This document shows positions 19,311 to 62,423 of a stretch of DNA of 64,000 nucleotides, piece after piece. The stretch covers positions 217,013-281,012 of the forward strand of contig MGPE01000005.1 in assembly GCA_001797335.1 (NCBI GenBank), written 5' to 3'. The DNA comes from Deltaproteobacteria bacterium GWA2_38_16 (lineage in GTDB: Bacteria > Bdellovibrionota > JACOXK01 > 2-02-FULL-40-11). The translations under genes were made by a program, and so were the position numbers. The notes under the pieces are model-generated. The model worked only from the letters and a program-made list of their open reading frames with translations, was not told where the DNA came from and made no database searches. The number at the start of each line of letters is the position of its first letter. Position 1 is the stretch's first letter.

Positions 19311-20246
19311 ATGTTTCAGCAGATGGTGCTTTCCAGTATCGATCTTAAAAACAGATTTTTTGAAGTTAATTTCTTGCCCGATTTAACAGTCCTAAAAGAC
19401 TCTATCCAGAGAAAAGGAATTCTCCAGCCGATTATTGTAAAATGTCATTCTGACCCCCGACTTGATCGGGGGGAAGAATCTCTTCAGATAGTCAGTGGCT
19501 TTAGGAGGCTTGATTGCGCTCGTGCTTTAGGATTGACTCAAGTGCCTGCCTTGATCGTAGAAGGGGAATTGAGTGATCTAGCGCTCTTCGAAAGAGCGTT
19601 AGAAGAAAATCTTTTTAGCCGGCCATTTAACCTGATTGAAAAAACCATCGTACTTCAAAAATTAAAAGTTCAATTTCACGTTCCAGAATCTTTATTAATT
19701 GAAAAATACATGCCCATTATTGGTTTAGATCCTGCTGCAACGGTGTATCAGCGTTATCAAGAACTTTTAAATTTAGAAAACTCAATCCAAATCTATATAG
19801 TTCAGCAGAATTTGCCCTTGCATGTCATCGAAAGTTTTTTAGCCTATACCCAAAAAGAGCAAAAGATGCTTTCATCTTTCTTGAGTCCCATTCATTTTAC
19901 GGTTTCTGGTCTAAAAGAGTTTTTAATATGGGTTCGAGAGGTGATGGTGCGAGATAAAGTAGAGCTTAGTGAAATTTTATCTTCTGTGCATTCTTGCTCT
20001 CAGTATGAAGAGGTGAAAAAAGTATTAAAATTAAAACGCTATCCCAGGCTTTCAGAGCTAGAGGAGAAATTTAAAGTTTTTAAACAGTCTTTGTCTCTTC
20101 CGCTTGAAGCTCCTTTATTTTTTGAAGATAATAAAATCCAGATGAAATTTGGGTTTCGCAATAAAATAGAACTTAAAGAGTGGGCACAAAAAATAGATCG
20201 AGCGTTAGATAAGAAAGAACTAGAAGAGATGCTAAAGCTCTTATGA
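19311..20246 (+). CDS. ParB-like CTPase/nuclease-domain protein
   Basis: 311 residues with ParB N-terminal boxes: KGILQPIIV (box I), SGFRRLDCARALG (box II) and EENLFSRPFNLIEK (box III), which in ParB bind CTP. The central and C-terminal regions are helical and unlike canonical ParB. There is no ParA partner. A 38-base palindromic repeat (19444-19481) lies inside box I-II spacing and is translated as HSDPRLDRGEE (residues 46-56). It overlaps the radical SAM gene by 4 bases. A chromosome-segregation role is unlikely; a DNA-linked function with the SPL-like partner is inferred. Confidence 0.75.
   Translation: MFQQMVLSSIDLKNRFFEVNFLPDLTVLKDSIQRKGILQPIIVKCHSDPRLDRGEESLQIVSGFRRLDCARALGLTQVPALIVEGELSDLALFERALEENLFSRPFNLIEKTIVLQKLKVQFHVPESLLIEKYMPIIGLDPAATVYQRYQELLNLENSIQIYIVQQNLPLHVIESFLAYTQKEQKMLSSFLSPIHFTVSGLKEFLIWVREVMVRDKVELSEILSSVHSCSQYEEVKKVLKLKRYPRLSELEEKFKVFKQSLSLPLEAPLFFEDNKIQMKFGFRNKIELKEWAQKIDRALDKKELEEMLKLL
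19444..19481 (+). repeat. Palindromic repeat inside the ParB-like gene
   Basis: Starts GTCATTCTGA and ends AAGAATCT around the inverted arms CCCCCGA / TCGGGGG. It is read in frame without a stop. Confidence 0.8.
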
Positions 20247-21376
20247 TCCACTATCGTCCTCAAAAAATTTATATTGATCGTGCTGTTTGTGATTCGCCCA
20301 TTACGAAAAATATTTTAGATTCTTTTTCAGATATTCCTCGAGAATATATCGAAGGAAAACCCGAGTTTTTAAATACCCTTCATCAGTATCCAGATCCTAT
20401 TTTTGAAGGGAAAAAATATTTGTGGGTTACTAAAAATCATGGGAAATTAGTCAAAAAATGTGGGGCTTCGACTTCCAGTCTTCAAAATGTGGTGTGTTGT
20501 AATTACACTATTTTAGATTTTTCATTTAATTGCCATTTTGAGTGCATGTATTGTTTTTTACAAGAATACACCAATCTTCCTATGATGGTGGTGTATGCCA
20601 ATATTAAAGACATGCTTACATCCGTTCAGGAAGTTCTCAATTCAGCTTCTTCAAGAAACATTCGTATTGGAACCGGAGAAATGGCCGATAGTCTTGCCTT
20701 AGATGAGGTAACGGGGTTTAGTCAACATTTGGTTCCCTTTTTTGCTAATCAAAAAAAAGCACTTTTAGAATTAAAAACAAAATCTACATGCATTAAAAAT
20801 TTATTAAACATGGATCCAAAGGGACAAACCGTGATTGCCTGGACCCTAAGCCCTGAGTTATACGCACAAAAGTATGATTTAAAAACCGCTTCCATAAAAG
20901 AGCGTTTGGAAGCGGCCCGCTTGTGTCAAAAGGCAGGGTATAAGATTGCTTTTCATTTGGATCCTCTTATTCAAGAGCCTACTTGGAAAGAAGATTATAA
21001 GCAGTTGGTTGATGAACTGTTTGATCAATTTAATTTGGAATGGGTAAGCTTAGGGGCGTTAAGATTTAATGCTAATTTAAAAACAATTATTCAAAGGCGT
21101 TTCCCTAACAGTTTTTTAATTACAGGAGAATTTGTGTCTACCCCCGATGGCAAAAAACGCTATATTCGTTCCATTCGAGAAGAGATGTATGAAACCCTTC
21201 AAGGGTATATTCTTCAGAAAAAGACAAAAACACCCGTGTATTTATGTATGGAGTCGGATTTGGTATGGAAAAATGTGATGGGGTATGCGCCAGAAACTCA
21301 AGAGGCACTGGAAAGATATTTAACAGGGAGAGATTCCCCGATCAAGTCGGGGAATGACAGAGGGGTTGCCAAATAA
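20243..21376 (+). CDS. Spore photoproduct lyase-like radical SAM protein
   Basis: 377 residues. The radical SAM cysteines are Cys97, Cys101 and Cys104 in NCHFECMYCFLQ (CxxxCxxC). The IDRAVCDSP start, YLWVTKNHG, and RIGTGEMADSLALDEVTGF segments match the SPL family. In Bacillus this enzyme reverses spore photoproduct, but non-spore-formers also carry members of unknown substrate. The C-terminal tail GRDSPIKSGNDRGVAK comes from a palindromic repeat at 21331-21358. It is coupled to the ParB-like gene by an ATGA overlap. Confidence 0.85.
   Translation: MIHYRPQKIYIDRAVCDSPITKNILDSFSDIPREYIEGKPEFLNTLHQYPDPIFEGKKYLWVTKNHGKLVKKCGASTSSLQNVVCCNYTILDFSFNCHFECMYCFLQEYTNLPMMVVYANIKDMLTSVQEVLNSASSRNIRIGTGEMADSLALDEVTGFSQHLVPFFANQKKALLELKTKSTCIKNLLNMDPKGQTVIAWTLSPELYAQKYDLKTASIKERLEAARLCQKAGYKIAFHLDPLIQEPTWKEDYKQLVDELFDQFNLEWVSLGALRFNANLKTIIQRRFPNSFLITGEFVSTPDGKKRYIRSIREEMYETLQGYILQKKTKTPVYLCMESDLVWKNVMGYAPETQEALERYLTGRDSPIKSGNDRGVAK
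21331..21358 (-). repeat. Palindromic repeat at the 3' end of the radical SAM gene
   Basis: Inverted copy: AGATTCCCCGA, then TCGGGGAATGAC. It supplies the last coding residues of the gene just before the stop. Confidence 0.82.
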
Positions 21377-21394
21377 GCGGTTCTAGAGTATATA
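21366..21394 (+). promoter_or_regulatory. Sigma-70 promoter upstream of the 21433 gene
   Basis: TTGCCA (21366-21371), 17 bases, TATATA (21389-21394). The -35 overlaps the last codons of the radical SAM gene. AAGGAAAGAGG precedes the next ATG. Confidence 0.6.
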
Positions 21395-21432
21395 AAATTT
21401 CACCTTAAACATCCCTAAGGAAAGAGGTATTC

Positions 21433-22254
21433 ATGGTAAAAAAATCGTTTCTTATTGTTTTTTTCTTTTTTAATTTTGCACCTGTTTATGCACAAGATGA
21501 AGCCCGAGTGTTAGAGCAACCCGCCTATGTTGTGGTGGGGTACGGTGGAACATTTGAAGCACAAAATCCTCTAATGGTAGAACCTGACAAACAAGCTGAG
21601 GTTCAAAATCAATTAATTGAAGGAATGAAAAAACGCCTGTTGGAAGCCAATGCAGTTCTTTTAGAATGGCAGGTAAAAACCTCTTTTCATCCTACTGCTA
21701 TCTCTAATCAAGGAAAAGTGATTCCTGATTTATATTTTCCTTCTGAAAAAGAAGCCCGATTTTTAATGGTTCCTATGGTATTTGAAGGAACTCAGGGAAA
21801 TCTAAAAGAGGCACTAGAATTTTTAAATCAAAAACAATTGCCGCAGGGGCATTTTAAAGCAGAAGAAGTCAAAGAGGTTCGATATTCTTTAGAGTCATCC
21901 TATGGTTTTTATAATAAAGAACAAAAAGATATGGATCCATTCATGTCTACCATTGTTACAAAGGAAAAGGGATTTGCTGATTTATCGGTGGCGTTAAACG
22001 ATAAGGATAAAACATTGGATAGTCTAGTGAGGTTCTATAAAGGAAATAATGAGTATGAGATCCAAGGCCGTCATTTACTACGGTATGTGGCTGTCTATTT
22101 TAGTTTTGTAGACCCCTCCTGGATTCAAGAAGGGTATATTCCTCAGTCTCAAATTCTCGGTCAGGCATTGCCTGATGGACGGCAGATGATGCTGATTGGA
22201 CTCATTCAAGATGCCAAAGAGCTCGAAGAATTTTTAAAGGGTGAGCCCAAATAG
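21433..22254 (+). CDS. Secreted or periplasmic protein of unknown function
   Basis: 273 residues. The N-terminus is a clear signal peptide (KK, then a Phe-rich hydrophobic core, cleavage likely after PVYAQ/VYA). The mature part is soluble, rich in charged residues, with no motif I recognise; FVDPSWIQEGYIPQSQILGQ near the end may be a conserved core. It has its own promoter and AAGGAAAGAGG ribosome site. MarC follows 13 bases later. Confidence 0.7.
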   Translation: MVKKSFLIVFFFFNFAPVYAQDEARVLEQPAYVVVGYGGTFEAQNPLMVEPDKQAEVQNQLIEGMKKRLLEANAVLLEWQVKTSFHPTAISNQGKVIPDLYFPSEKEARFLMVPMVFEGTQGNLKEALEFLNQKQLPQGHFKAEEVKEVRYSLESSYGFYNKEQKDMDPFMSTIVTKEKGFADLSVALNDKDKTLDSLVRFYKGNNEYEIQGRHLLRYVAVYFSFVDPSWIQEGYIPQSQILGQALPDGRQMMLIGLIQDAKELEEFLKGEPK

Positions 22255-22267
22255 TATTTAAGTTTTC

Positions 22268-22924
22268 ATGGAACTAGAACTTTTTTCACTTCTTAATTTT
22301 TTTACCAGGGTATTCATGGGGATTTTTGTTATTTTAGATCCCTTTGGGGCTTCTTCTCATTTTTTGGCACTAACTTCTCATCAAAAAGATATGGTTAAAA
22401 AAGACATTGCTAAAAAAGCCTGTACAGTGGCCTTTGGTATTCTAGTATTTTTTAGCTTAGCCGGGGGGGCGCTCTTTAAGTACTTTGGATTAACCCTAGC
22501 GGCCCTAAAAATTGCAGGGGGAGTGTTGTTATTTACCGTGGCCTTAAACATGCTTCATGGAAAAAGAGCTGGAGTGAGAACAACCCCCGAAGAAGAAAAA
22601 GAACATGAGTCTTTAGAAGATATTGCAGTGATTCCCATGGCCATTCCTTTACTGAGTGGTCCTGGAACCATTACTACCGTCATGGTGTTTGCTGGGGAAG
22701 CTCACTCGCTTATCAATTTGGGAATGGTGATTTTAGCCAGTTTTTTAGCTCTTCTTATTTCCTATATTATTTTATCTAATTCTGTGTATCTTTTAAATAT
22801 TCTTAAAACAACGGGAATTAAGATCTTAACCCGGATTATGGGTCTTATTATGTCTGTCATTGCGGTACAATTTGTGATTAATGGAATTATTGATATTTTA
22901 CCAACGTTATTAAAAAAGATATGA
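22268..22924 (+). CDS. MarC-family integral membrane protein
   Basis: 218 residues with six hydrophobic segments. Family landmarks are the N-terminal FVILDPFGASSHFLALT, the central IAVIPMAIPLLSGPGTITTVMV, and the C-terminal RIMGLIMSVIAVQFVINGI. MarC proteins resemble amino-acid exporters, but function is mostly unproven (the multidrug-resistance link was withdrawn). It overlaps the next small gene by 4 bases. Confidence 0.9.
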   Translation: MELELFSLLNFFTRVFMGIFVILDPFGASSHFLALTSHQKDMVKKDIAKKACTVAFGILVFFSLAGGALFKYFGLTLAALKIAGGVLLFTVALNMLHGKRAGVRTTPEEEKEHESLEDIAVIPMAIPLLSGPGTITTVMVFAGEAHSLINLGMVILASFLALLISYIILSNSVYLLNILKTTGIKILTRIMGLIMSVIAVQFVINGIIDILPTLLKKI

Positions 22925-23145
22925 AGTCTATTTTTAAAATGATTGATCTGGTTGAAAAGGCGATGGCGTCTCACAAAACCGTTACCGTCATTGATAAGAG
23001 TGGAAAATTCTTAAAAGGGGAGCTCTACGATCACTATGTACGTTTGTCTGCTGATAAACTTCGAGGGAAAATTAAATTGAGATTGGTGGCAGATCAAAAA
23101 GAAGTTGAAGTAGATGTCAATGACATCCTAGACATTCAAATCTAA
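22921..23145 (+). CDS. Small hypothetical protein, SH3/Lsm-like beta pattern
   Basis: 74 residues. The sequence alternates strands (TVTVIDKSGKFLKGELYDHYV, IKLRLVADQKEVEVDVNDILDIQI), suggesting a small beta barrel, but I recognise no family. The ATGA overlap with marC supports translation. It ends just before a large inverted repeat. Confidence 0.55.
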   Translation: MKSIFKMIDLVEKAMASHKTVTVIDKSGKFLKGELYDHYVRLSADKLRGKIKLRLVADQKEVEVDVNDILDIQI

Positions 23146-23152
23146 TCGCACA

Positions 23153-23254
23153 CTTTTGAGTTTATACTTCGTTCTCGCATCGCTCAAATCCTCAACGTAT
23201 ATTAAATACGCCTCGGATTTTCGCTCAGCTCGGGGCCTTGTCTAAACTCAAAAT
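23153..23254. repeat. About 100-bp imperfect palindrome between convergent genes
   Basis: Outer arms TTTTGAGTTTA (23154-23164) and TAAACTCAAAA (23243-23253) are perfect complements. Inner arms CGTAT (23196-23200) and ATACG (23206-23210) close the hairpin; between them AAATCC pairs with GGATTT and CGCTC-type blocks recur. It could act as a bidirectional terminator or be a separate class of dispersed repeat. Confidence 0.7.
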
Positions 23255-23265
23255 TGAGCGATTAT

Positions 23266-26200
23266 TTATGGGAGGGTATCTTTTAAGAGGTCTTCTATTA
23301 GGTTTCCCTTAGTTTCTTCTTTTTCTTCTCCTTCAGGTTTTTTAGGTTCTTCCTTTTTCTTGGGAGAAAGAATCTTTTCAAATGCTCCTTGTACCGTATT
23401 CTGTAACAATTTCCCAACATCCGGAAGTGGAGTAGGGGAGGAGAGGGTGCCTGTCACCGTAAAAGGAATTTGTTTATTGAGATCTTCAGTTTCTGATAAA
23501 TAATAGTTTCCCGTGTAATCTAAGCTACCATCAAATCCCAATGCTCCTTGGCATTTTAAGAGGTGGCTTTTTCCTTTTAGGAAAATATCTAGGGTGATGA
23601 GTTTTTGATTTTTAATAATTAAAGAGGTTTGTAACACAGAAAAATCATCGCTTAAATTTACATTAGGTGCCACTTGATTTAAAATAGGAATGCCTGCAAT
23701 GGCTTCTGTTAAATTAAAAATTTTAAAATGGCCATTTTTAATAATGGTTTTTCCTTTACCGGCCATTGATTTTTGAATTTGTTCACCCTCTAGACCAGTC
23801 ATAGATACATTCATGTCGGCATCTAATGAACCAGAAAGTTTATCCTTAAGTTTACTAGACTGTGCCGTTAGAAATTTTTCCATATTGAGTTTTTGAAGAT
23901 GCGCTTCAATATCTGTGACAGGATCTTTTTTATTTAAGTTTAAGGTTGTTTTAGCATTAAATTTCCCATCATAAAAATCAAATTGTAGAGGATCAATGGT
24001 AAGGAGTTTATCTTTATAGGTCATTTTAGATTCTACATTCCAAAATTTAAAGGTTTTATAAGTGGCTTTGGTTAAAGAAATTTTACCATTGAAGGTGAGT
24101 CGTTTTAAGAGAGGATTTTCTGACAAGGGAGGTGAAGATGGTTTCTTTCCTGTTTTTTTTTCTATGGGTTTTTCTTCTTTTTCCTCTTGATCTTTTGAAA
24201 TGGGAAGATATTCAAGCGCTTGAGAGGAAAGGGTAAAATTGATATTGATCGGTTTTGTGTTATCTAAAAGACTTCCTTTTAGATCTGTTTCAAACCTTAA
24301 ATTTCCTGTTAGAGGGGCTTTTTTTAAAGAAGGTAAAAATTCCGAAAACTCAGAAAGGGATACCGAAGATGTTTGAAGATGGATGTTATCAGTCGTGGAG
24401 CCTTGGATGTCCAGAGCTGTTTCTTTAAGGAGAAGTTTTGTATCCTTGAAGGTTATAGAATCTTCCTGGGACTGGATATTAAGATCTAAGGTGAAAGGGA
24501 TTTTTTCTGGTTTTATAAAGGTGTTTTTAAGATGAATATCCATATCAGTTAAATTGATTTTTCCTAAAATGTTGAGTTTTTGAATTTTTCTTTTGGAATA
24601 GGAAACATCGCTTGTGACATCAACTAAAAAGGGGCCTTTAATTTGAACAGATTTAGATTGGATCAGGGTTTGGGGAATTTCTCCAGAAACTTCATGAAGA
24701 GCCAAAGTGCCGTTTAAAGATAAATCTTTAGGTCCATCCAGAGGTAATTGTAATTGGATAGATTTAAATTCAACAGTGCCTAAAAATTTATTTTTAATAG
24801 ATGGGAAGAATTGATTCCATTCTGAAAGGGAAAAGGGTTTGCTGTCTATGGCTAACTGGCATGTTTTTTTTGTATCAGAAGAAAAATTTGAAACGGTTCC
24901 TTTCATATGAGTTTCTAAGTTGTGAAATAATAGGTTTAGTGTGGATAGGGTAAGCTGATTATTCTTTAAACTGGCTTTTAAAGTAAAAGAAAGAGGGATT
25001 TGGGCAGGTTTATAAAATTCATTTTTAAATCGAAGAGCGGCTTGGGAGAGATCTGCTTTTGTATCCAGCGAAAGTTCTTTTATCTTTTTTTTTGAAATTA
25101 AAAAAGAGGTGGTGGTTGAAAAAAGGATTGGTCCTTCTGAGCTCCACGGTTTTGATTGTGTAAATTTTGGATTAAATTCCAGACGTCCCCCTTCAGAGGT
25201 CATGAGTTTTCCACTGATGTCTAAGCTTTCTATTTGGGTGGGATCTCCTTTTATAGTCAAAGAAGGGAGAGAAAGTTTTCCCTTAAAATGGATTGGAAAA
25301 GAGGGAGGGGAATATTTTTCCAAGGTATCAGAAGAAAAAGTGTTTGTAGAAAGGGTAAGATCTATGGAGGGTGTAGGAAGAAGGTGAATAAGGCCATTGG
25401 TTTTAAGGGCAATATCATCTATGGTTAAGGTGGTAGCTCCCAGAGAAATATTTTTTTCATTTTCTTTTTCTTCATAAATCCCATTTCCTTTAAGGCGTAG
25501 GAGTTTTCCCTTGGGTTTAGACCATTTGTTTTCAAAATTTAAAAGTAGTGGGGTTAAATCAAGTTCATAATCTTTTAAATCAATCCGGGTAGGTTTATTA
25601 TTTTTAATTTGAAAATGGCCTTTGAAGCGAACACTGCCCACTCCCTCCATCATGATTTTTTTATCGGTAAAGAGAGGTTGTAGAAAAGAAGGGATTTCTC
25701 CTTGTAGTTTTTGAACGTCAATGTCTCCTTCCCCCTCTTCCATTAAAAAGGGCGTCAAAGTGCCCTTTGAAGAAAGTTTAAGTGATACATCATATTCATT
25801 TTGTAACTTTTTAGAATTGCTCTTTTCTTTAGTTTCTTGTTTTGGAGTAGAAGCTTGTAAAGATGTTTCTATATCAAAGCGAGGATTTTTAAAATCTAAA
25901 AGCGTGCCTTTGAGCTGTACAGCGCCCATAGGGAGGTCTAAGGACAGATTTTCAAAAACAATGTTTTCTTTACTCAGAATGCCTTTAAATTTAATACGGA
26001 GTTTTTCTCCCATTTCTTTTTTAGCAAACGGAGTTTCAATTTTTAAAGAATCAAGTTCAGAAGAAATATTTATAGAGAATGGTTCTTTAGAAATCAGGGG
26101 ATTTGAAAAAGTCCCCTTCATATTTATGGGGCCTTCAAGGGTAATATTATTTTTAGTAGAAAGAGGAAGAGAGGCTTGAAACTGAAAAGAAAGTGGATCT

Positions 26201-28043: not shown

Positions 28044-28052
28044 ATTGGGGCT

Positions 28053-28081
28053 AGTATTAAAGGAGAGAGCACTATTGTCAA
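28053..28081 (-). promoter_or_regulatory. Possible promoter for pgi
   Basis: On the minus strand TTGACA (28081-28076) is followed by TAATAC/AATACT at 16-17 bases. Its predicted start is within a few bases of the pgi ATG. Confidence 0.35.
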
Positions 28082-28132
28082 TTAAAAACTCTTTAAAAAT
28101 AAAAATTTTATTTTTCAGCCTCTTTGTTTCAA

Positions 28133-28162
28133 TTGACAGTATTTCATAAATTGATTTATGAA
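28133..28162 (+). promoter_or_regulatory. Possible promoter for the thioesterase gene
   Basis: TTGACA (28133-28138), then TATGAA (28157-28162) at 18 bases spacing. The predicted start falls only a few bases before ATG 28174. Confidence 0.35.
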
Positions 28163-28173
28163 TGATCACTTAT

Positions 28174-29351: not shown

Positions 29352-29352
29352 G

Positions 29353-29712: not shown

Positions 29713-29728
29713 CTATTTTTTCCTCCCT

Positions 29729-29754
29729 GTCATCCCCGATCAGATCGGGGATCT
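29729..29754 (+). repeat. Intergenic palindromic repeat
   Basis: GTCATCCCCGATC, then GATCGGGGATCT; near-perfect hairpin directly upstream of the minus-strand tauE-like gene. Confidence 0.85.
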
Positions 29755-29828
29755 AGTTTTATAGACATTATATGCTGGGGAGTGTAAATTTTAAATGACT
29801 ATTTTTTAAAAAAATATTAACATTTTTT

Positions 29829-29889
29829 GTCATTCCCGCGAAAGCGGGAATCTATAAGAATGGATCCCCCGGTCAAGCCGGGGGATGAC
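29829..29889. repeat. Composite pair of palindromic repeats
   Basis: A first hairpin (29829-29853: GTCATTCCCGC GAAA GCGGGAATCT) and a second inverted hairpin (29862-29889: GGATCCCCCGG, then CCGGGGGATGAC) form one unit. The same two-hairpin unit recurs inside aroE at 60555-60606. Confidence 0.88.
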
Positions 29890-29923
29890 AACGTAGTATT
29901 CGCCAAAATTGGAGTGATTATAA

Positions 29924-29998: not shown

Positions 29999-30006
29999 AA
30001 TTTTAG

Positions 30007-34751: not shown

Positions 34752-36049
34752 CACTGAAAAAATTCTTTGTGTAAAACCGTTAAAGCATTTTTGGTCTGAC
34801 TTTCTTTCAATAGGAAACTTAAATTAATTTTAGAGGCTCCCAACGAAACCATTCTGACTGGAATTTCATGTTGGCTTAATATAGAAAAGATACGAGCAGG
34901 AACCGTGTGGTCTTGTCTTAATCCTTCCCCCACAACACTCATAATAGACTGATGCTTTTCAACCGATACTTCGGAAAATGTTTCAAGCTCTGATACGATG
35001 GAGGAAAGATGCTGTTCATTATCGATAGTGAGTGAGACAGATACTTCAGAAGTTGAGACCATATCTACAGAGGTTTTGTGTCTTGAAAATATTTCAAAAA
35101 TGCGTGCTAGAAAACCGTATTGATCGAGCATTCGGGTGGAAGTGATATTAATAACAATTAACCCATTTCGGTGAGCAATGGCTTTGACCGTCCCTTGAGT
35201 TTTTGGAGTATGTTTGTAAACCGTCGTTCCAGGATGAGAAGGATCATTGGTATTTAAAATTCGAACTGGGATATTTTTTTCCATGGCTGGAAGCATCGTG
35301 GCAGGATGAATGACTTTAGCTCCATAGTATGCCAGTTCTGAGGCTTCCTCAAAACTCATTTCTCGAATGGGTTTTGCATCGGGGACCATTCTAGGATCTG
35401 TGGTCATGATGCCACTGACATCTGTCCAAATTTGAATTTCTGTTGCATGAAGTGCTGCCCCAAAAAGAGATGCAGAATAATCACTGCCCCCCCTACCCAG
35501 AGTGGTGATGTTTCCCTCTGGATCTTTAGCGATAAATCCTGTAGTGACAATAATTTTATCTTTATAAGAAAGAACAGCTTTTTGGATATCTTGATAAGAT
35601 TCTTTAAGGGGTGTGGCGTGTCCAAAATTTGAATTGGTTTTAAGTCCTAAATCATAAGAAGGAACATAAAGAGAAGAGGTAAAGTAATTTCCAATAATTT
35701 TTGCTGAGCAGCGTTCTCCAAAAGAAAGAATCCGATCTTTAGTTCTCAAACTACATTCTTGAAGAAGATGAATGCCTTGAAGAAGTTGAGTAAGTTCTTG
35801 AAATTCCTCATTCAATAGATCTTTTGAAAGTCCTAACTCGTGTAAAACGGTGAGATGCCTTTCTTGAAATTCAGCGATGTTATAGTCCGTCATTCCAGAA
35901 CAAAGATCAGTGAGGTGATGGGTGATACCACTTAAGGCTGAGACAACAACCAAAGGGTTTCGTGAACGTTGAGAGGAAACAATGTCATGTACTTTTTTAA
36001 TTTGTGAAGCGTTTCCAACCGATGTGCCTCCAAACTTCATAATGATCAT
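34748..36049 (-). CDS. lysC: Aspartate kinase
   Basis: Phosphorylates aspartate at the head of lysine, threonine and methionine synthesis. 433 residues with N-terminal KFGGTSVGNA, the FIAKDPEGNITTLGRGGSDYSA catalytic stretch, and two C-terminal ACT domains (INITSTRMLDQYGFLARIFEIF and ARIFSILSQHEIPVRMVS), where lysine or threonine feedback acts. It overlaps lysA by 4 bases; lysA is upstream in the transcript. No lysine riboswitch is visible ahead of the pair. Confidence 0.96.
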   Translation of the reverse strand: MIIMKFGGTSVGNASQIKKVHDIVSSQRSRNPLVVVSALSGITHHLTDLCSGMTDYNIAEFQERHLTVLHELGLSKDLLNEEFQELTQLLQGIHLLQECSLRTKDRILSFGERCSAKIIGNYFTSSLYVPSYDLGLKTNSNFGHATPLKESYQDIQKAVLSYKDKIIVTTGFIAKDPEGNITTLGRGGSDYSASLFGAALHATEIQIWTDVSGIMTTDPRMVPDAKPIREMSFEEASELAYYGAKVIHPATMLPAMEKNIPVRILNTNDPSHPGTTVYKHTPKTQGTVKAIAHRNGLIVINITSTRMLDQYGFLARIFEIFSRHKTSVDMVSTSEVSVSLTIDNEQHLSSIVSELETFSEVSVEKHQSIMSVVGEGLRQDHTVPARIFSILSQHEIPVRMVSLGASKINLSFLLKESQTKNALTVLHKEFFQC

Positions 36050-37293
36050 AGGGTTTCACCTCGAATTAAATCTTCGAAAGATTCGCGACGGCGGCAAATT
36101 TTAAATTTCCCCCCACTGACCAAAACCTCTGCGGCTCGGGGGCGGGAATTATAATTTGAGGACATCGAAAATCCATAAGCTCCTGCACTCATAATAGCCA
36201 AACAATCTCCTGGATGTAAGGGGATGAGTTTTCTATTTTTTCCTAAGAAATCTCCAGATTCGCAAATAGGTCCCACAATATCTACGGACGTCATCCCGAG
36301 CGAAGCGAGGGATCTTTGCACGGGCCAAATGTCTTGATAGGCTCCGTAGAGAGTAGGGCGAATCAAATCATTCATGGCGCCATCCACAATTACAAAGTTT
36401 TTCTGAGGCATGTTTTTGGTATACAGAACTTTTGTGAGCAATATCCCTGCATTTCCCACAATAGCTCTTCCTGGCTCAATCAGAAGTTTTAGTTTCAGGT
36501 CTTTTAATTCTTTTAGGGCTGAGGTGATATATTGTTGAGGAGAGGGAGGTTCTTCATGGGTGTAGGGGATTCCTAGTCCACCTCCTAAATTGATATGTTC
36601 CAGAGATAAACCAAATGATTTTATTTTTAGAATAATTTTTTTAAGTTCTTTAATGGTTTCAAGAATGGGAGAAAGGCTAAGCATTTGAGATCCAATATGG
36701 CAATCAAGCCCTGTAAAATGAATGTGGGTATAATTTTTATGATGTTTATATAAGTCAATGGCTTCACGAATAGGAATTCCAAATTTATTTTCTTTAAGGC
36801 CCGTAGCAATGTAGGGATGGGTTTTGGGATTGATGTTTGGGTTTACTCGTAAAGACACGGGGGCTTTTTTTCGAAGTTTTCGAGCCAGGGTGTTTATAGC
36901 GTCTAGTTCTTGGGATGATTCTACATTAAAGCAGAGAATATTTTTTTGAAGAGCATATCGTATTTCTTCATCTTTTTTTCCAACACCCGAGAAAACTACT
37001 TTTTTAGGATCTCCACCGGATTTGATAACGCGAAAGAGTTCTCCTCCTGAAACAATATCAAACCCAGCTTCTAATTTGGCTAAGAGTTTTAAAATGGATA
37101 TATTGGAATTGGCTTTAACAGAATAGCACACCAGATGTGGAGAATTTTGAAATGATTTTTGAAATGCTTTAAAATGTCTTTCGATGGTGGCTTGGCTATA
37201 GACATAACAAGGCGTTTTGACATGCTCGGCAATGTGGGCCAGAGAAACTTCTTCACAAAAGAGAGTATTTTTTTTATAGTGAAAATAATGCAT
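36046..37293 (-). CDS. lysA: Diaminopimelate decarboxylase
   Basis: Final step of lysine synthesis. 415 residues; PLP lysine Lys60 (CYSVKANSN), HIGSQMLSLSP, the glycine loop NLGGGLGIPY, EPGRAIVGNAG, and the catalytic CESGDFL segment in VGPICESGDFLGKNR. A 26-base palindromic repeat (36290-36315) encodes residues about 327-335 (RSLASLGMT) between PVQ and VDIVGP, a loop where family members normally run straight on. The enzyme otherwise keeps all key residues, so it is probably active. Confidence 0.95.
   Translation of the reverse strand: MHYFHYKKNTLFCEEVSLAHIAEHVKTPCYVYSQATIERHFKAFQKSFQNSPHLVCYSVKANSNISILKLLAKLEAGFDIVSGGELFRVIKSGGDPKKVVFSGVGKKDEEIRYALQKNILCFNVESSQELDAINTLARKLRKKAPVSLRVNPNINPKTHPYIATGLKENKFGIPIREAIDLYKHHKNYTHIHFTGLDCHIGSQMLSLSPILETIKELKKIILKIKSFGLSLEHINLGGGLGIPYTHEEPPSPQQYITSALKELKDLKLKLLIEPGRAIVGNAGILLTKVLYTKNMPQKNFVIVDGAMNDLIRPTLYGAYQDIWPVQRSLASLGMTSVDIVGPICESGDFLGKNRKLIPLHPGDCLAIMSAGAYGFSMSSNYNSRPRAAEVLVSGGKFKICRRRESFEDLIRGETL
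36290..36315 (+). repeat. Palindromic repeat inside lysA
   Basis: GTCATCCCGAGCGAAGCGAG, then GGATCT; translated antisense as part of LysA. Confidence 0.87.
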
Positions 37294-52973: not shown

Positions 52974-52974
52974 T

Positions 52975-53616: not shown

Positions 53617-53668
53617 AATATTTTATTGGCAGAGCATAGACTTTTGAGTAATACTTTTGGCTTAATCT

Positions 53669-55620: not shown

Positions 55621-55627
55621 GAGAATT

Positions 55628-56602: not shown

Positions 56603-56614
56603 TGAGGAGAATAT

Positions 56615-57718
56615 ATGGATTTTAAATTACCCGATATTGGTGAAGGCATTCACGAGGGAGAAATTGTAAAATGGCTTGTGAAAGAGGGCGATATCGTCAA
56701 AGAAGACCAGCCTCTTGTAGAAGTCATGACAGATAAAGCGACGGTTGAAATTCCTTCGCCTGCCAAAGGAAAAATCCAAAAAATTTATTGTAAAGAAGGG
56801 CAAATTGTCAAAGTAGAATCTGTGATTGTGACGATTGCGGAGGAAGGAGTTGCTCAAAGTCATCCTGAGCGGAGCTCGGGATCTCTTGCGACTCCTGCTA
56901 TTCGAAAACTCGCCAAAGATTTAGGAATAGATCTTTCAACGGTGAAAGGCACAGGCCCCGGCGGAAGAATCATCGAACAAGATCTTAAAACCAGTCATCC
57001 AGCCCCTTCCAGTCATACAAGCTCTTCTAGTCATCCCGAGCGGAGCGAGGGATCTCAAGAACGGATTCCTCTTCGTGGCATTCGAAAAACCATTGCTCAG
57101 CATCTGCAAAAAGCAAAACAACTGGCTCCTCATTATACCTATGTGGACGAGGTAGACATGACGGATTTGGTAAAACTTCGAGATGAAAAAGACAAAATTT
57201 CTTATATTGCATTTATTGCAAAAGCCCTAATTCCAGCGTTAAAAGAATTCCCCTATCTCAATGCTTCATTAGATGAGGTTACTCAAGAAATTATTCTAAA
57301 AAAATATTATCATGTGGGTGTGGCCGTAGCGACAGAAGATGGGTTGGTAGTCCCGGTGGTCAAAGATACAGATAAGAAAACTATTGATGATGTTGCCAAA
57401 GAAATTGTGCGTTTATCTGAAGATGTGAGACAACACAAAGCCAAGCCAGAGGAACTGAAAGGTGGAACTTTTACCATTACGAGCATTGGATCTATTGGGG
57501 GTGTGTTTTCTACTCCCATTATTAACACTCCAGAAGTGGCTATTTTGGGTGTGAATAAAATCGTTGAACGACCGGTGATTCGAGAGGGAAAAGTGGTCCC
57601 TCGCCATATGATGTATTTGTCTTTGACGTTGGATCACCGTGTAGTCGATGGTGCCATTGCCGCTCATTTTATGAATAAGTTGATTAGCATTCTTCAAAAT
57701 CCAAGGACAATTTCATGA
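56615..57718 (+). CDS. Dihydrolipoamide acyltransferase (E2)
   Basis: 367 residues. One lipoyl domain (about 1-78) with acceptor Lys41 in MTDKATVEIP, a peripheral-subunit-binding domain (about 88-124, ATPAIRKLAKDLGID, GTGPGGRI), and the catalytic core (about 148-367) with HRVVDG near the end. Two palindromic repeats encode SHPERSSGS (about 81-89) and SHPERSEGS (about 138-146), both in the flexible linkers that flank the binding domain. It overlaps E3 by 4 bases. Confidence 0.95.
   Translation: MDFKLPDIGEGIHEGEIVKWLVKEGDIVKEDQPLVEVMTDKATVEIPSPAKGKIQKIYCKEGQIVKVESVIVTIAEEGVAQSHPERSSGSLATPAIRKLAKDLGIDLSTVKGTGPGGRIIEQDLKTSHPAPSSHTSSSSHPERSEGSQERIPLRGIRKTIAQHLQKAKQLAPHYTYVDEVDMTDLVKLRDEKDKISYIAFIAKALIPALKEFPYLNASLDEVTQEIILKKYYHVGVAVATEDGLVVPVVKDTDKKTIDDVAKEIVRLSEDVRQHKAKPEELKGGTFTITSIGSIGGVFSTPIINTPEVAILGVNKIVERPVIREGKVVPRHMMYLSLTLDHRVVDGAIAAHFMNKLISILQNPRTIS
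56859..56884 (+). repeat. Palindromic repeat in E2 linker 1
   Basis: GTCATCCTGAGCGGAGCTCG, then GGATCT; translated SHPERSSGS. Confidence 0.87.
57030..57055 (+). repeat. Palindromic repeat in E2 linker 2
   Basis: GTCATCCCGAGCGGAGCGAG, then GGATCT; translated SHPERSEGS in the same frame as the first copy. Confidence 0.88.
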
Positions 57719-59094
57719 GGTACGATGCCGTTGTTATCGGAGGAGGGCCTGGAGGTTATGTGTGTGCCATTCGGCTGGCACAGCTCGGCAAAAAAGTAGC
57801 TTTGGTGGAAAAACATAAATTGGGAGGAGAGTGTTTAAATTACGGATGCATCCCCTCGAAAGCTCTTATTTTTGCAAGTAGTCTCTATGATAAAATCCAG
57901 CATGCTTCAGATTTTGGAATTGAAGTAGAAAATGTTCACCTCAATATCGATAAGCTCCACTCTTTTAGAACAGCACTGATTACAAAATTAAATACGGGAA
58001 TTGGTTTTTTATTAAAACATAATAAAGTGGATGTCATCTCTGGCCAGGCTCAATTTATTTCCCCTCAAAAAATAAGCGTAAATGGTTCCCAAGATGTAGA
58101 AGCGGATTCTTTTGTGGTCTCTACCGGCAGTGAGCCCATTCAAATTCCTGGGTTTGAATATGATGGAAATTTTATTATGGGTTCTAAAGAAGCCTTAGAG
58201 CTTTCCCCCCTACCTAAAAATTTATTGGTGTTGGGAGGCGGTGTTATTGGGTTAGAACTTGGCACATATTTTTCAAAATTGGGATCAAAAGTTTCTATTG
58301 TTGAAATGATGGATCAATTGCTTCCTGGTGTGGATAAGGAATTGGTATCGGTTGTAGAGCGGGCACTTAAAAAACGAGGAGTAGAAATTTATACGTCAAC
58401 CAAAGCCAAAAAAATAGAAAAATCGAATGGTGTTTCGTTAAAGATTGAAGCACCTGATGGTGAAAAAGTATTAACGGCGGATAAACTTTTAGTAACCATT
58501 GGTCGAAAGGCATCTGTGGGGACATTAGGATTAGACAAGGCTCAAGTGAAAGTTTCCGAAAAAGGATTTATTGTCGTGGATGAAAATTTAAAGACATCAA
58601 ATTCTCATATCTATGCCATTGGCGATGTGACAGGGCAGCCACTTTTGGCCCACAAAGCCTCTCATGATGGAATTTCAGTGGCTGAATATATTGTAAAAAA
58701 TAAAAATAGAAAAAAATCTCCCATGAGTTGGGCTATTTTTACAGATCCAGAAATTGCGGGCGTTGGGCTTAGCCAAGACGAAGCCCAAAAAGGGGGAAAA
58801 AATGTGATAGTTGGAAAATTTCCCTTTATGGCTTTAGGCAGGGCACTGGCCGTATCTGAACCCGAAGGATTTGTTAAAGTGATTGCCGATCGTGATACAC
58901 AAGAAGTGCTAGGGGTTTTTATGGTGGGGGCACATACATCTGATTTAATCTCTGAAAGTGCACTTGCCGTCACCCATCATTTAAGGTTAGAAGATATTGC
59001 AGATACCATTCACCCCCATCCAACGCTCCCAGAAGGATTTATGGAAGCGGCGCAAGTCGCATTAGGAAAGGCTATTCACATTCCAAACCGATGA
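57715..59094 (+). CDS. lpd: Dihydrolipoyl dehydrogenase (E3)
   Basis: 459 residues. FAD motif VIGGGPGGYVCAIRLAQ, redox disulfide Cys40/Cys45 in GGECLNYGCIPSKAL, NAD motif LVLGGGVIGLELGTYFSKLG, IYAIGDVTG and the C-terminal His-Glu pair in HPHPTLPEGFMEA from the partner subunit. It reoxidises lipoamide in the complex built by the three preceding genes. It overlaps lipB by 4 bases. Confidence 0.97.
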   Translation: MRYDAVVIGGGPGGYVCAIRLAQLGKKVALVEKHKLGGECLNYGCIPSKALIFASSLYDKIQHASDFGIEVENVHLNIDKLHSFRTALITKLNTGIGFLLKHNKVDVISGQAQFISPQKISVNGSQDVEADSFVVSTGSEPIQIPGFEYDGNFIMGSKEALELSPLPKNLLVLGGGVIGLELGTYFSKLGSKVSIVEMMDQLLPGVDKELVSVVERALKKRGVEIYTSTKAKKIEKSNGVSLKIEAPDGEKVLTADKLLVTIGRKASVGTLGLDKAQVKVSEKGFIVVDENLKTSNSHIYAIGDVTGQPLLAHKASHDGISVAEYIVKNKNRKKSPMSWAIFTDPEIAGVGLSQDEAQKGGKNVIVGKFPFMALGRALAVSEPEGFVKVIADRDTQEVLGVFMVGAHTSDLISESALAVTHHLRLEDIADTIHPHPTLPEGFMEAAQVALGKAIHIPNR

Positions 59095-59882
59095 AAATTA
59101 TTGATTTAGGCATTAAAGAATATGGAGAAGTGTGGGAGCTCCAAAAAGGGCTCGTGTTGGATCGAGCCCAAAATATTATTTCCAATACACTGCTTTTGGT
59201 CGAACACCCGCATGTGATTACCAAAGGACGCAGATCCAAAAATACAGATATTGTTCATGTGAATGCTCCTGTGTTTGAAGTCGAGCGGGGCGGGGAAGTC
59301 ACCTATCATGGACCCGGACAGCTTGTGGGTTATCCGATTGTCTATATTCATCGATTTGGGGTTAAAAAATACATGGAGCTTTTGGAAGAAGTCGTGATCC
59401 AAACCTTAAAAAAATTTGATATCCATGGTGAGCGAAAAGCCGGAGCCACAGGCGTGTGGGTTCACAGTCATCCTGAGCGTAGCGAAGGATCTCTTAAGAA
59501 AATTGCATCTCTCGGGGTAGCGGTCAAAAAATGGGTGACCTATCATGGATTTGCGCTGAATGTGAATACGGATTTAGAGTATTTTAAAATGATCCGCCCG
59601 TGTGGGTTTGACGCATCTGTGATGACATCGATAAAAGAAATTTTACAAAGAGATGTGGACATGCAAGAGATTAAGAGGGAGCTTTCCTATCAATGGAAAG
59701 TAATATTTGGTTCATGGGTGGGTGGCGCTGAAGGAGAGGCTCCGTCACCGCGCCCGCAGCGTACGCGAGGACGGATGATGGAGAGTGTCCTTCAGCGACA
59801 GGACCCAGAGATTGACGTGTTATCCAGTGATAGATCCTTCATCAGCGGGTACCCGCATCGTTTTCTCCGCGATGACTTCTAA
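59091..59882 (+). CDS. lipB: Octanoyl-[ACP]:protein N-octanoyltransferase with repeat-derived insert and tail
   Basis: Transfers octanoate from ACP to lipoyl domains, ahead of LipA. 263 residues against a usual 210-230. Key segments: RGGEVTYHGPGQLVGYPI, catalytic Lys in KKIASLGVAVKKWVTYHG, and Cys171 in MIRPCGFDASVMTS. A repeat at 59467-59492 adds SHPERSEGS (126-134) just before the catalytic lysine loop. The C-terminus beyond about residue 210 is encoded by two further palindromes (59726-59797 and 59832-59876), so that tail is likely not functional sequence of the family. Confidence 0.93.
   Translation: MKIIDLGIKEYGEVWELQKGLVLDRAQNIISNTLLLVEHPHVITKGRRSKNTDIVHVNAPVFEVERGGEVTYHGPGQLVGYPIVYIHRFGVKKYMELLEEVVIQTLKKFDIHGERKAGATGVWVHSHPERSEGSLKKIASLGVAVKKWVTYHGFALNVNTDLEYFKMIRPCGFDASVMTSIKEILQRDVDMQEIKRELSYQWKVIFGSWVGGAEGEAPSPRPQRTRGRMMESVLQRQDPEIDVLSSDRSFISGYPHRFLRDDF
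59467..59492 (+). repeat. Palindromic repeat inside lipB
   Basis: GTCATCCTGAGCGTAGCGAA, then GGATCT; translated SHPERSEGS. Confidence 0.87.
59726..59797. repeat. Second type of palindrome in the 3' part of lipB
   Basis: Arms CGCTGAAGGAGAGGCTCC (59726-59743) and GGAGAGTGTCCTTCAGCG (59780-59797) pair imperfectly. The centre is GC-rich, unlike surrounding sequence. Confidence 0.65.
59832..59876 (-). repeat. Degenerate palindromic repeat at the lipB/aroE junction
   Basis: Begins AGATCCTTC and ends GCGATGAC, the two ends of the dispersed family, with CGGGTACCCG inside. Its GATGAC end contains the aroE start codon. Confidence 0.55.
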
Positions 59883-60699
59883 ATGGATTGGGATCTTAGG
59901 ATTCCCTCTTACCCATAGCCTTTCCAAGCAGATTCACATAGAAAAATTACAAAAAGCCAATCTGAACTATGAATTTCGGATTTTGGAATGGTCTTCCGTG
60001 GATGTCGATCGACATCTCCAAGAATTAAAAAAAGATCCTACCTGTGTTGGGTTTTCTGTGACGATGCCCTATAAAGAAAAGATTATTTCCTATCTCGACC
60101 ACTGTGATGAATTTGCGAAAAAAGTTTCTGCAGTAAACTGTGTCAAAAATGTAGGAGGGCAGTGGTGGGGATATAATACCGATGCCCCAGGGTTTATGAA
60201 GCATTTTAAACTGTGGAATCCTTTGCCACCCAAAGAGGTTCATGTGGTTGTCATTGGAGCTGGAGCCACGGCAAGAACCTTAAGCTATGCATTGGCACAA
60301 GAAGGCTATCGAAATTTTACTTTCATCAATCGCACAGAAGAAAAAGCAAAAGCCTGGGCTCAAAAAATAAAAACTTTTTTCTCAAATATTCAAACTAAAG
60401 TTTTGAAATGGGGAGATCCTTCGCCCTGTGAGCTCAGGATGACGAATGTTTTTCTCATGAACACAACGCCTTTTAGCCCTGTCATTCTGAGCGCAGCGAA
60501 GAATCTCATTTCCCCTGCCTGGATTTTTGATGTGGCGTATAATCCACCAAGTTTGTCATTCCCGCGAAAGCGGGAATCTATGGATCCCCGCCTACGCGGG
60601 GATGACAGCCAGTGCCGCGAAAGGTGTTTTTACACAATGAACGGCTGGCCTATGTTTGAAGCACAAGCCGATCTGGCATTTAAAATCTGGACGCGATGA
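59872..60699 (+). CDS. aroE: Shikimate dehydrogenase with several repeat-derived inserts
   Basis: NADPH reduction of 3-dehydroshikimate in aromatic amino-acid synthesis. 275 residues from ATG 59872. Ser16/Ser18 (PLTHSLS), catalytic Lys68 (TMPYKEKI), Asn89 (AVNCVKN) and Asp104 (YNTDAPGF) are intact, as are NADP motif VIGAGATARTL, NRTEEKA and late Gln in FEAQADLAFKIW. Palindromic repeats encode parts of about 181-191, 204-212 and 228-245 (FPRKRESMDPRLRGDD). Activity is likely, since all key residues remain, but the C-terminal half is heavily rebuilt. Confidence 0.9.
   Translation: MTSKWIGILGFPLTHSLSKQIHIEKLQKANLNYEFRILEWSSVDVDRHLQELKKDPTCVGFSVTMPYKEKIISYLDHCDEFAKKVSAVNCVKNVGGQWWGYNTDAPGFMKHFKLWNPLPPKEVHVVVIGAGATARTLSYALAQEGYRNFTFINRTEEKAKAWAQKIKTFFSNIQTKVLKWGDPSPCELRMTNVFLMNTTPFSPVILSAAKNLISPAWIFDVAYNPPSLSFPRKRESMDPRLRGDDSQCRERCFYTMNGWPMFEAQADLAFKIWTR
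60414..60443 (-). repeat. Palindromic repeat inside aroE (first)
   Basis: Inverted copy: AGATCCTTCGCCC, then GAGCTCAGGATGAC. Translated about GDPSPCELRMT. Confidence 0.75.
60481..60506 (+). repeat. Palindromic repeat inside aroE (second)
   Basis: GTCATTCTGAGCGCAGCGAA, then GAATCT; translated VILSAAKNL, a different frame from the lipB and E2 copies. Confidence 0.87.
60555..60606. repeat. Composite two-hairpin repeat inside aroE (third)
   Basis: GTCATTCCCGC GAAA GCGGGAATCT (60555-60579) followed by GGATCCCCGCC...GGGGATGAC (60582-60606). Same unit as 29829-29889. Confidence 0.88.
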
Positions 60700-60700
60700 T

Positions 60701-60728
60701 AGATTCCCGCGCTTCACGCGGGAATGAC
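60701..60728 (-). repeat. Palindromic repeat between aroE and the rhodanese gene
   Basis: AGATTCCCGCG, then CGCGGGAATGAC. It starts 2 bases after the aroE stop and ends 2 bases before the convergent stop; it could act as a bidirectional terminator. Confidence 0.85.
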
Positions 60729-60729
60729 T

Positions 60730-61197
60730 TTAAGCTGCTTTTTTCTTAGGTTGCTGTTGTTTCGGTTGCTGCGGCTGTTGTAATGGGACGACCACAGATT
60801 GTTTAGCCGGCTGTTTGGGTTGAGTTTCTGCCTGTGGAGGTGCAGTAATCACATTGGGTTTATAATTCGGGTCACCTTCCACATGAAATTGATTTTTAAG
60901 CCAGCTATCTAATCCGCCTTCCAGTGCCCACACCCGAAATCCCATTTTACCTAGAATTTCTTGGGCAAATTCAGCTCCTCGGCATAGATGATTGGCAGAG
61001 TAGACGATAATATCAATGTGGCGATTAAGCCATTGATTGGCTTTTGTTTCTAGCTCTTGAAGGGGGATATTAATAGCCCCCGTGACATGAAGCTTTAAAT
61101 AATCATGAGCGGGTAAAACATCTACCAAGATAAAATCAGCATGATTATCCATCCGACTTTTTAATTCTTCAGGAGTTAATATTTTTTCTTTTTTCAT
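60730..61197 (-). CDS. Rhodanese-fold protein lacking the usual catalytic Cys, Q/P-rich tail
   Basis: 155 residues from the Met at 61197, chosen for GAGGAGG about 7 bases upstream. Rhodanese landmarks: FILVDVLPAHDYLKLHVTGAINIP and ALEGGLDSWL. In the active-site loop IIVYSANHLCRGAEFA, Ser67 stands where the catalytic Cys normally follows Tyr; Cys72 sits five residues later. Sulfurtransferase activity is doubtful. The last 45 residues are Gln/Pro/Lys-rich and disordered-looking. Convergent with aroE. Confidence 0.82.
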   Translation of the reverse strand: MKKEKILTPEELKSRMDNHADFILVDVLPAHDYLKLHVTGAINIPLQELETKANQWLNRHIDIIVYSANHLCRGAEFAQEILGKMGFRVWALEGGLDSWLKNQFHVEGDPNYKPNVITAPPQAETQPKQPAKQSVVVPLQQPQQPKQQQPKKKAA

Positions 61198-61210
61198 AAA
61201 ATTCCTCCTC

Positions 61211-61236
61211 GTCATCCCCGACTTGATCGGGGATCC
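61211..61236 (+). repeat. Palindromic repeat upstream of the rhodanese gene
   Basis: GTCATCCCCGA, CTTG, TCGGGGATCC; close to perfect hairpin. Confidence 0.86.
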
Positions 61237-61270
61237 ATTGTTTACACAGAACGTATCGGCCTTCTTTCCA

Positions 61271-61287
61271 TGAATCTTTAATGAGAA
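61271..61287 (+). repeat. Left 17-bp direct repeat bounding the accessory island
   Basis: TGAATCTTTAATGAGAA; an identical copy lies at 63694-63710. Confidence 0.8.
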
Positions 61288-61374
61288 AAATATAAAAAAA
61301 TGACTGGTAATTGACGAAGGATTATTCATTGGTTGTTAAAAATCTTGTGTCTAAATCTAAAAATAGCATACCTC

Positions 61375-61409
61375 TAGACAAACGTCTTTATGTAGACTAT
61401 AATAAAGAC
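61375..61409 (+). promoter_or_regulatory. Promoter with operator-like palindrome for the 61423 gene
   Basis: TAGACA (61375-61380), 17 bases, consensus TATAAT (61398-61403). The palindrome GTCTTTAT (61384-61391) / ATAAAGAC (61402-61409) overlaps the -10, the usual place for autorepression. Confidence 0.7.
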
Positions 61410-61422
61410 TAGAATAATAGTT

Positions 61423-61719
61423 ATGAAATATAAAGATATAGACAATTTTTTATTTGAATCTTTAACCGTATTAAAGGCGAAATTATCGGAATATAATGAT
61501 GCGGTAGCTAAGAATGATTATTTTTTGGCCGTTACAAAAAATGGCAAGCCTGAAACCGTGCTTATTAAATTTGATACTCTTAAAGAATTATTAAAAAAAT
61601 ATCATTCTTCTGCTCGTCATTATTTTGATGTGGCTCATCTTAAACGTAAAAAAAGGAATCCTATTAAAGAAAAATGGCTTAAAAAATGGAATCAATTAGG
61701 TCCATATGAAAAAAAGTGA
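61423..61719 (+). CDS. Phd/YefM-like small protein (putative antitoxin)
   Basis: 98 residues. LSEYNDAVAKNDYFLAVTKNGKPETVLI resembles the Phd/YefM DNA-binding fold, where 'TKNGKP' precedes a hydrophobic strand. The C-terminal third is basic and unstructured-looking, as antitoxin tails often are. It overlaps the nucleotidyltransferase gene by 14 bases and sits behind a promoter with an operator palindrome. Antitoxin role is inference. No Shine-Dalgarno visible. Confidence 0.6.
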   Translation: MKYKDIDNFLFESLTVLKAKLSEYNDAVAKNDYFLAVTKNGKPETVLIKFDTLKELLKKYHSSARHYFDVAHLKRKKRNPIKEKWLKKWNQLGPYEKK

Positions 61720-62338
61720 TTTATTAAAAAAAGAGTTAAGAGATGCTGCTTTAATTACTCGAAGAGACAAGCGTACGTTGGCGCTTTCTGTAGTACTCCA
61801 AAAAGCTTTATTGCCCTATAAGCTTTATCCTATTTTGGTGGGAGGGTCTGCTGTGGAGTATTACACAAGAGGGGAATATGCTTCTGGAGATATCGATTAT
61901 GTTTTGCCTACTTCAGATATTCTAAAAGAGATTATGGCTCAATTGGGTTTTAAAAAAGAGGGGAGGTTATTTATTCATCCGGAATTGCATTTAGTTATCG
62001 AATTTCCATCCTCCTATTTAGAGAAAAATGAAACTTTTGATGAAATTACAGAAGGCAATATTAAAGTAAGAATTATTGCTTTGGAAGATTTAATTATTGA
62101 TCGGTTAAATACTTTTAAGTGGGGAAAGGTAACAGCTGAAGGAGAAAACATATTGCTCCTATTGGATAAGCTGTCTGAGGGTGGATTTAGAAATCTTAAA
62201 CAAAAGGCAAAATTTCATGATGTTTTGGATATGCTAAATAAGTTAGTTTCATTAAAAGATAAAATTCAAAAAAAACACCTTACTAAAATAAAAGCGACAG
62301 ATTTACTAAAAGAAATCATTCATAAAAATAGATGTTAA
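61706..62338 (+). CDS. Nucleotidyltransferase-fold protein (putative toxin), first pair
   Basis: 210 residues. VGGSAVEYYTRGEYASGDIDYV carries the nucleotidyltransferase GG...DxD core (Asp-Ile-Asp), and a later VRIIALEDLIIDRL matches AbiEii/DUF6036-type proteins, where the conserved helix follows. Such proteins serve as toxins in some toxin-antitoxin and abortive-infection systems by nucleotidylating tRNA or proteins. The target is unknown here. Confidence 0.68.
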   Translation: MKKSDLLKKELRDAALITRRDKRTLALSVVLQKALLPYKLYPILVGGSAVEYYTRGEYASGDIDYVLPTSDILKEIMAQLGFKKEGRLFIHPELHLVIEFPSSYLEKNETFDEITEGNIKVRIIALEDLIIDRLNTFKWGKVTAEGENILLLLDKLSEGGFRNLKQKAKFHDVLDMLNKLVSLKDKIQKKHLTKIKATDLLKEIIHKNRC

Positions 62339-62348
62339 GGCAAAAAAA

Positions 62349-62386
62349 GACTAGTAATTGACAATTAGTCATTTATTAGTTATTAT
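62349..62386 (+). promoter_or_regulatory. Promoter for the second nucleotidyltransferase pair
   Basis: TTGACA (62358-62363), 17 bases, TATTAT (62381-62386). GACTA (62349) and TAGTC (62366) form an inverted repeat around the -35. Confidence 0.65.
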
Positions 62387-62397
62387 TATCTTATCCC

Positions 62398-62423
62398 GTC
62401 ATCCCAGGCGTGACCTGGGATCC
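62398..62423 (+). repeat. Palindromic repeat between promoter and second pair
   Basis: GTCATCCCAGGCG, then CCTGGGATCC; would lie in the 5' leader of the message. Confidence 0.84.

Follow-up and report, generated by a model that had tools for sequence, protein, structure and literature searches.

Short palindromic repeats with a CGTC tag are the closest described relatives of the hairpins reported here. In the parts of Di Nocera et al. (2013; PMC3733652) considered here, CGTC-tagged REPs are described as 8-9 bp stems that begin with AT, carry loops of 4-5 nt and are followed by CCA-like tails. They predominantly form head-to-head dimers, tail-to-tail pairs being rare, and copies lie inside genes, including DNA repair and tRNA synthetase genes, with different REPs at about the same recB site in two Xanthomonas species. 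The same passages assign dRS3 and RPE-6 to family CGTC-1 and RPE-4 to CGTC-4, and describe no dedicated transposase, the mobilising enzyme being not known when these repeats were named in 2013; we found no report of one in the later literature. Y1 enzymes recognize a tetranucleotide at the hairpin foot and distinct left- and right-end hairpins (PMC6006769).

We analyzed a stretch of 64,000 nucleotides (the window) from Deltaproteobacteria bacterium GWA2_38_16, whose genome comprises 2.0 Mb in 19 contigs with a completeness of 100. Units were searched for with the pattern GTCATYC-N8..20-GRATCY, and the reversed pattern or shuffled sequence served as the control. The window contained 16 matches, against 0.23 expected from shuffles; one of the 16, at 12210, is a chance match whose arms fail to pair. 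A sequence-only reading of the window had listed the hairpins, and a unit was present at each listed position, the one at 19444 having a longer core (Table 1). The genome-wide consensus search that the reading had called for, as a check on whether further copies exist, returned 177 perfect matches against 3 for the reversed pattern, which puts the genome's complement of this short mobile hairpin at about 180 copies. Under a stricter structural definition, about 80 units were found in a 463-kb sample of this genome and none in its reversed sequence; the sample includes the window and was picked for copy-rich stretches, so its densities are not genome averages. Single peptides such as HPERSEGS might appear ordinary, but that chance or gene-intrinsic codon patterns produce the hairpins can practically be dismissed, given the 177 matches vs. 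3 and the complete lack of reversed-control matches for one class of unit (class A, below) across the 291 genomes of our phylum sample. The densest genome that we met, G010 of the same phylum, held 637 perfect pattern matches in 1.7 Mb.

Table 1. Repeat units in the window (positions counted from its first nucleotide)
Feature	Positions	Strand	Context
Chimeric unit	19444..19481	+	Class A arms (GTCATTCTGA...GAAGAATCT) enclosing class C core (CCCCGACTTGATCGGGG); within parB-like gene 19311-20246; missing from four sister-genus orthologues
Class C unit	21331..21358	-	Forms C-terminal tail of spore photoproduct lyase-like gene 20243-21376
Class C unit	29729..29754	+	Intergenic
Class B (dRS3-like) unit	29829..29853	+	Left half of head-outward doublet; intergenic, upstream of tRNA gene
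Class C unit	29862..29889	-	Intergenic; right half of doublet with 29829..29853
Class A unit	36290..36315	+	In lysA (36046-37293, - strand); read RSLASLGMT; site with remnants in three sister genomes, absent in two
Class A-like unit	56859..56884	+	E2 linker; read SHPERSSGS
Class A unit	57030..57055	+	Second E2 linker; read SHPERSEGS
Class A unit	59467..59492	+	In lipB (59091-59882); read SHPERSEGS; net +27 nt vs. own-family orthologues
Candidate decayed unit (AGATCC..GCGGGTACCCGC..GATGAC)	59832..59876	-	End holds aroE start codon; direct sequence reading
Class A unit	60414..60443	-	In aroE; different repeat at same codons in sister genera
Class A unit	60481..60506	+	In aroE; read VILSAAKNL
Class B unit	60555..60579	+	Left half of intragenic doublet in aroE; read SFPRKRES
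Class B unit	60582..60606	-	Right half of aroE doublet; read DPRLRGDD; independent single class B unit at site in G003
Plain-stem unit	60701..60728	-	Intergenic, immediately 3' of aroE stop codon
Class C unit	61211..61236	+	Intergenic
Class C unit	62398..62423	+	Intergenic

Each unit is built of GTC, a stem closed by AT, a further AT and CY, about 25-32 nt in all. Units stand alone or in head-outward doublets; most lie between genes, and some are in frame within housekeeping genes. Three shapes were distinguished. Class A (GTCATTCTGAGCGAAGCGAAGAATCT and longer forms) makes up about half or more of the sampled copies; all 47 of its units show a 5-bp outer stem, then GA opposite GA and finally 1-7 bp of inner stem. 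In class B (GTCATTCCCGCGAAAGCGGGAATCT), which has the dRS3 layout, 8 bp close a GAAA-type loop; in class C (GTCATCCCCGACTTGATCGGGGATCC) the stem measures 8-9 bp and the loop is of CTTGA type. With the AT counted in, the stem is 8 or 9 bp long in 33 of 34 plain-stem units. The base before GTC, the GTC itself being required by the search, was T in 49 units of all classes, A in 17, C in 11 and G in 4.

When the opposed dinucleotides of class A were left free, GA/GA was found 45 times and every other non-complementary pair at most 3 times. The base 5' of the first GA was C or T in 45 of 45 cases and the base 3' of it G or A in 44 of 45; 5'-YGAR is the context that favours stable tandem sheared G.A pairs. 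The inner pairs covary: among 35 distinct units, complementarity was found at the first pair in all 35 and at the second in 34, where shuffles reached at most 30 and 27, respectively. Thus the tag, the outer stem and the G.A pairs are fixed, and the interior of the unit is free to vary. Fold prediction for class A as DNA gave a 3-nt loop; the 26-nt form, at a predicted -1.9 kcal/mol, is weakly stable and no better than its own shuffles, and the longer forms have better predicted folds. At positions 7820, 8637 and 19269 of L018 an outer-stem variant, GTCATTGCGAG...GCAATCT, has its GA arranged in the same way; class A thus probably extends beyond the YCY stems.

The sequence-only reading had also claimed that copies inside genes are translated without stops. 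Copies do lie within the parB-like gene, lysA, E2 (two copies), lipB and aroE (four copies), but the copy in the radical SAM gene, the spore photoproduct lyase, only gives a C-terminal tail. However, a single unit is open in 4-5 of the 6 reading frames anyway, so translation without stops is weak evidence by itself; the case for coding insertion rests on the comparison with orthologues, which, at the level of aligned sequences, proves it. In lipB, the window reads GVWV[HSHPERSEGSL]KKIAS where sister genera read GVWV-QD-KKIAS; the sister genera have two residues only at this site (QD, EN or GS), no other LipB orthologue found in the family carries the insert, and the aligned chain of the solved homologue 2qht lacks such a segment. 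In aroE, what follows WGD is a class A unit in the window, a class B unit in the related genome G001, a lengthened class A unit in G004 and no unit in G003; at a second site, the class B doublet of the window is matched by an independent single class B unit (PCHPREGGDL) in G003, with G001 and G004 empty. At the lysA site the unit of the window is complete, that of G001 has another interior, and G005 has half a unit; G003 keeps just AGATCGATGAC, the two outer arms fused with the interior lost, and G002 and G004 have nothing. Nested units occur at 19444 and in the E2 linker of G001, where a class A unit is interrupted by further sequence (SHPERS..SEGS). Thus the window's inserted residues are missing from orthologues at these codons in lipB, lysA, aroE, E2 and parB; distant orthologues sharing them, which the reading had named as counter-evidence, were not what the comparison gave.

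The net length changes in aroE and parB differ from exact unit lengths, so either part of the resident sequence has gone or these loops are variable in any case; LysA loop length varies in solved homologues too. Viral contigs selected for carrying the repeat yielded no clean present/absent pair at near-identical DNA, so that support for recent movement is not direct. Further host genes in the 463-kb sample encode ArgS, a PP-loop TilS-type protein, MutS, RecO, QueA, ThiI, CtaA, NAD(P)H-hydrate dehydratase and a MobA-MoaA fusion; the fused MobA-MoaA frame (L030 5564-7162) has two inserted units, VIPSTKCEESL and CHPRLDRGSMEP. Some 93% of the sample is coding, yet only about 21 of 81-88 sampled units, a quarter or so, lie within genes; most genic insertions are thus either avoided or purged. 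The orthologues show that the repeats are a genuine family of mobile elements that insert in frame into coding sequence, a phenomenon that is itself known. New peptide segments in essential enzymes had been singled out as the most unusual feature of the window; the in-frame insertions are indeed seen against orthologues, but in-frame palindromes in housekeeping genes have already been reported, so that part is not new. What the paired orthologues offer is a natural series in which short mobile DNA adds, remodels and removes peptide loops in essential enzymes (ArgS, MutS, LipB, AroE).

Two further stretches of the window are recorded here as observations. Over 59715-59882, the lipB frame continues through palindromic sequence, absent from relatives, into aroE, and from the reading of the DNA the aroE start codon seems to come from the candidate decayed unit at 59832-59876. 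At 61423-62980, between and beside two repeats, lie small genes that are possibly toxin-antitoxin-like, namely a weak Phd/YefM-antitoxin-like ORF (below cut-off), an ORF without assignment and a DUF6036 nucleotidyltransferase.

We also analyzed how units are paired. Of 13 close neighbours in the sample of the window's genome, 11 were head-outward, one was in the opposite arrangement and one was on the same strand. Class A units paired only with class A, and B or C only with B or C, at spacings (inner ATC to GAT) of 2, 4, 10 or 16 and with unconserved spacer sequence. Among 25 doublets from the window's genome, G002 and G003, all of them same-class, 24 combined one ATCC unit with one ATTC unit, that is, differed at position 6, where 12.5 were expected (P about 7e-7); some G002 doublets are near-duplicates, so the effective number is slightly below 25. 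Position 8, two further in, was hetero in 6 of 25 and showed no tendency. Avoidance of perfect palindromes alone would not pick one position, and we therefore read the hetero doublets as two end types, the partners being perhaps distinct ends like those of a transposon. Homo doublets occur in viral contigs, G164 and G224, so the ATCC/ATTC pairing is a trend of the window's family.

Class A was found in all 8 sampled genomes of the window's own taxonomic class and in 12 of the 283 others in the phylum sample, several of these with a single match. Its distribution is patchy, one genus having members with 14, 1 and 0 copies. Viral contigs carry class A too, in at least 120 stretches (L120-L239), often in short gaps beside phage structural-type genes; when the genes near these repeats were clustered, they were of that type, with no transposase among them and one weak Y1 similarity. 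Viral contigs may thus offer a route of spread, bearing in mind that collections of them may include host DNA.

Taken together, these data make it likely that the units belong to the CGTC-tagged REP superfamily and are mobile, non-autonomous DNA hairpins, inserted in frame in some genes. An enzyme would recognize the fixed arms, the GTC tag and the G.A pairs on single-stranded DNA, much as IS200/REP hairpins are recognized by Y1 (HUH) transposases, and an ATCC unit joined to an ATTC unit in a doublet, with two different ends, would form the complete mobile unit. The mobilising enzyme would act in trans or have been lost; this enzyme step we put forward tentatively, at somewhat less than even confidence. 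Copies in genes would be survivors: with 4-5 of 6 frames open and net length having to be a multiple of three, neutral loop insertions would persist and disruptive ones would be purged. Old copies erode by loss or exchange of the hairpin interior, and the outer arms stay.

A different function was considered, namely termination of transcription or regulation at the RNA level, for which the hairpins would have been selected at gene ends, the genic copies being incidental. Most copies are indeed intergenic, and 19 of 80 have at least 5 T in the next 8 nt. But the other 61 have no T run, many copies lie within reading frames, the doublet spacings are fixed, and the tag and tail stand outside the stem, where a terminator does not need them; nor was there any Rfam match at the units, on which ground identity with an Rfam family was also rejected. 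A terminator role is therefore very unlikely.

If the units are mobile hairpins, the question is what moves them. One version of the preferred reading is that a RAYT or other Y1 transposase does so, as in GTAG REPs and REPINs, and is encoded elsewhere or was recently lost. The REP-like architecture, with a 5' tag at the hairpin foot, inverted doublets and interrupted stems, is of the kind that Y1 enzymes read (PMC6006769), and Y1 genes are present in G003, G004, G007, G010 and G018. However, the tag is GTC and not GTAG or GTGG, and the sole Y1_Tnp gene in the window's genome is IS200-like and frameshifted into two frames (L001 1462-1940, on the 12-kb contig 19 of G000). We found no Y1/RAYT gene in the incomplete assemblies of G001, G002 and G006, which have 72, 78 and 155 copies, respectively. 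Across 59 genomes, copy number was unrelated to the number of Y1 genes (Spearman 0.03); a unit lay within the fetched flanks at only 1 of 23 Y1 loci scanned, and neither of the two distant Y1 genes of G010 is flanked by units. A Y1 enzyme is thus a possibility that we rate somewhat below even. Spread may also need no transposase and proceed by template switching or strand slippage at replication forks, or by repair that copies one existing palindrome into another. This would suit the nested and interior-swapped units at conserved sites, the similar sites hit across genera and the lack of association with an enzyme, but it leaves unexplained why tag and tail are conserved outside the stem, why the tandem G.A is fixed and why doublets join ATCC to ATTC, and we consider it unlikely. 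A bolder proposal, which we regard as doubtful, is that class A is a distinct and widespread mobile hairpin whose tandem sheared G.A pairs would mark it for a non-Y1 enzyme, the complete unit being a doublet of 50-80 nt that encodes nothing and has ATCC as its left and ATTC as its right hairpin. The search for the enzyme is narrowed by the tandem-GA mark, by the pairing of ATCC with ATTC and by the copy-rich genomes without a Y1 gene.

As far as we could check, the tandem-GA class, the hetero ATCC/ATTC doublets and the remodelling series in orthologues are new, as are the copy-rich sister genomes in which no Y1/RAYT gene was found, the window's genome having just a broken one, and the presence of class A in many viral contigs. 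We found no description of a tandem G.A mismatch hairpin in the literature, the comparison covering the text of PMC3733652, and a literature text search with the repeat sequences and peptides returned only primers and unrelated matches.

Compared with the CGTC REPs, classes B and C share the AT-closed 8-9-bp stems, the 4-5-nt loops and the CCA-like tail, next to the GTC that the search itself required. The hairpins here also share the head-to-head dimers (11 head-outward of 13 neighbours), the in-frame intragenic copies and the absence of a flanking transposase gene, but they differ in the ATCC + ATTC doublets and in the base before GTC, which is mostly T here, against a published tag of CGTC, or TGTC/CCTC. 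In class A the stem is not an uninterrupted one of 8-9 bp with a 4-5-nt loop; it has 5 bp, then the tandem G.A and an inner stem that varies, mostly with a loop of 3 nt, so we call the class a variant and not a member of the four families. It is set apart by the stem and loop as worded in the text, and its prior inclusion under another description is possible. The likeness to dRS3 and to Rickettsia palindromic elements that the sequence-only reading had drawn was apt, dRS3 and RPE-6 being placed in CGTC-1 and RPE-4 in CGTC-4 in the passages of PMC3733652 considered. Its match of ATTCCC-N8-GGGAAT to the dRS3 layout fits class B (window 29829 and 60555), but this is only one of three shapes, and over half of the sampled copies are the tandem G.A hairpin; unlike dRS3, the repeats here coexist in several classes, and copies are scattered and not in large clusters. 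RPE-4 and RPE-6, by their published description, are likewise short palindromes in frame within housekeeping genes; their host is a different one, and class A probably differs from them in sequence and fold. REPINs and RAYT-associated GTAG REPs, and the BIMEs of E. coli, resemble the present repeats in having inverted doublets as units, and BIMEs combine two unit types (Y/Z) in one doublet. REPINs and GTAG REPs carry a GTAG or GTGG tag where these hairpins carry GTC, and the RAYT gene of REPINs is flanked by repeats, whereas the genome of the window is without a cognate RAYT.
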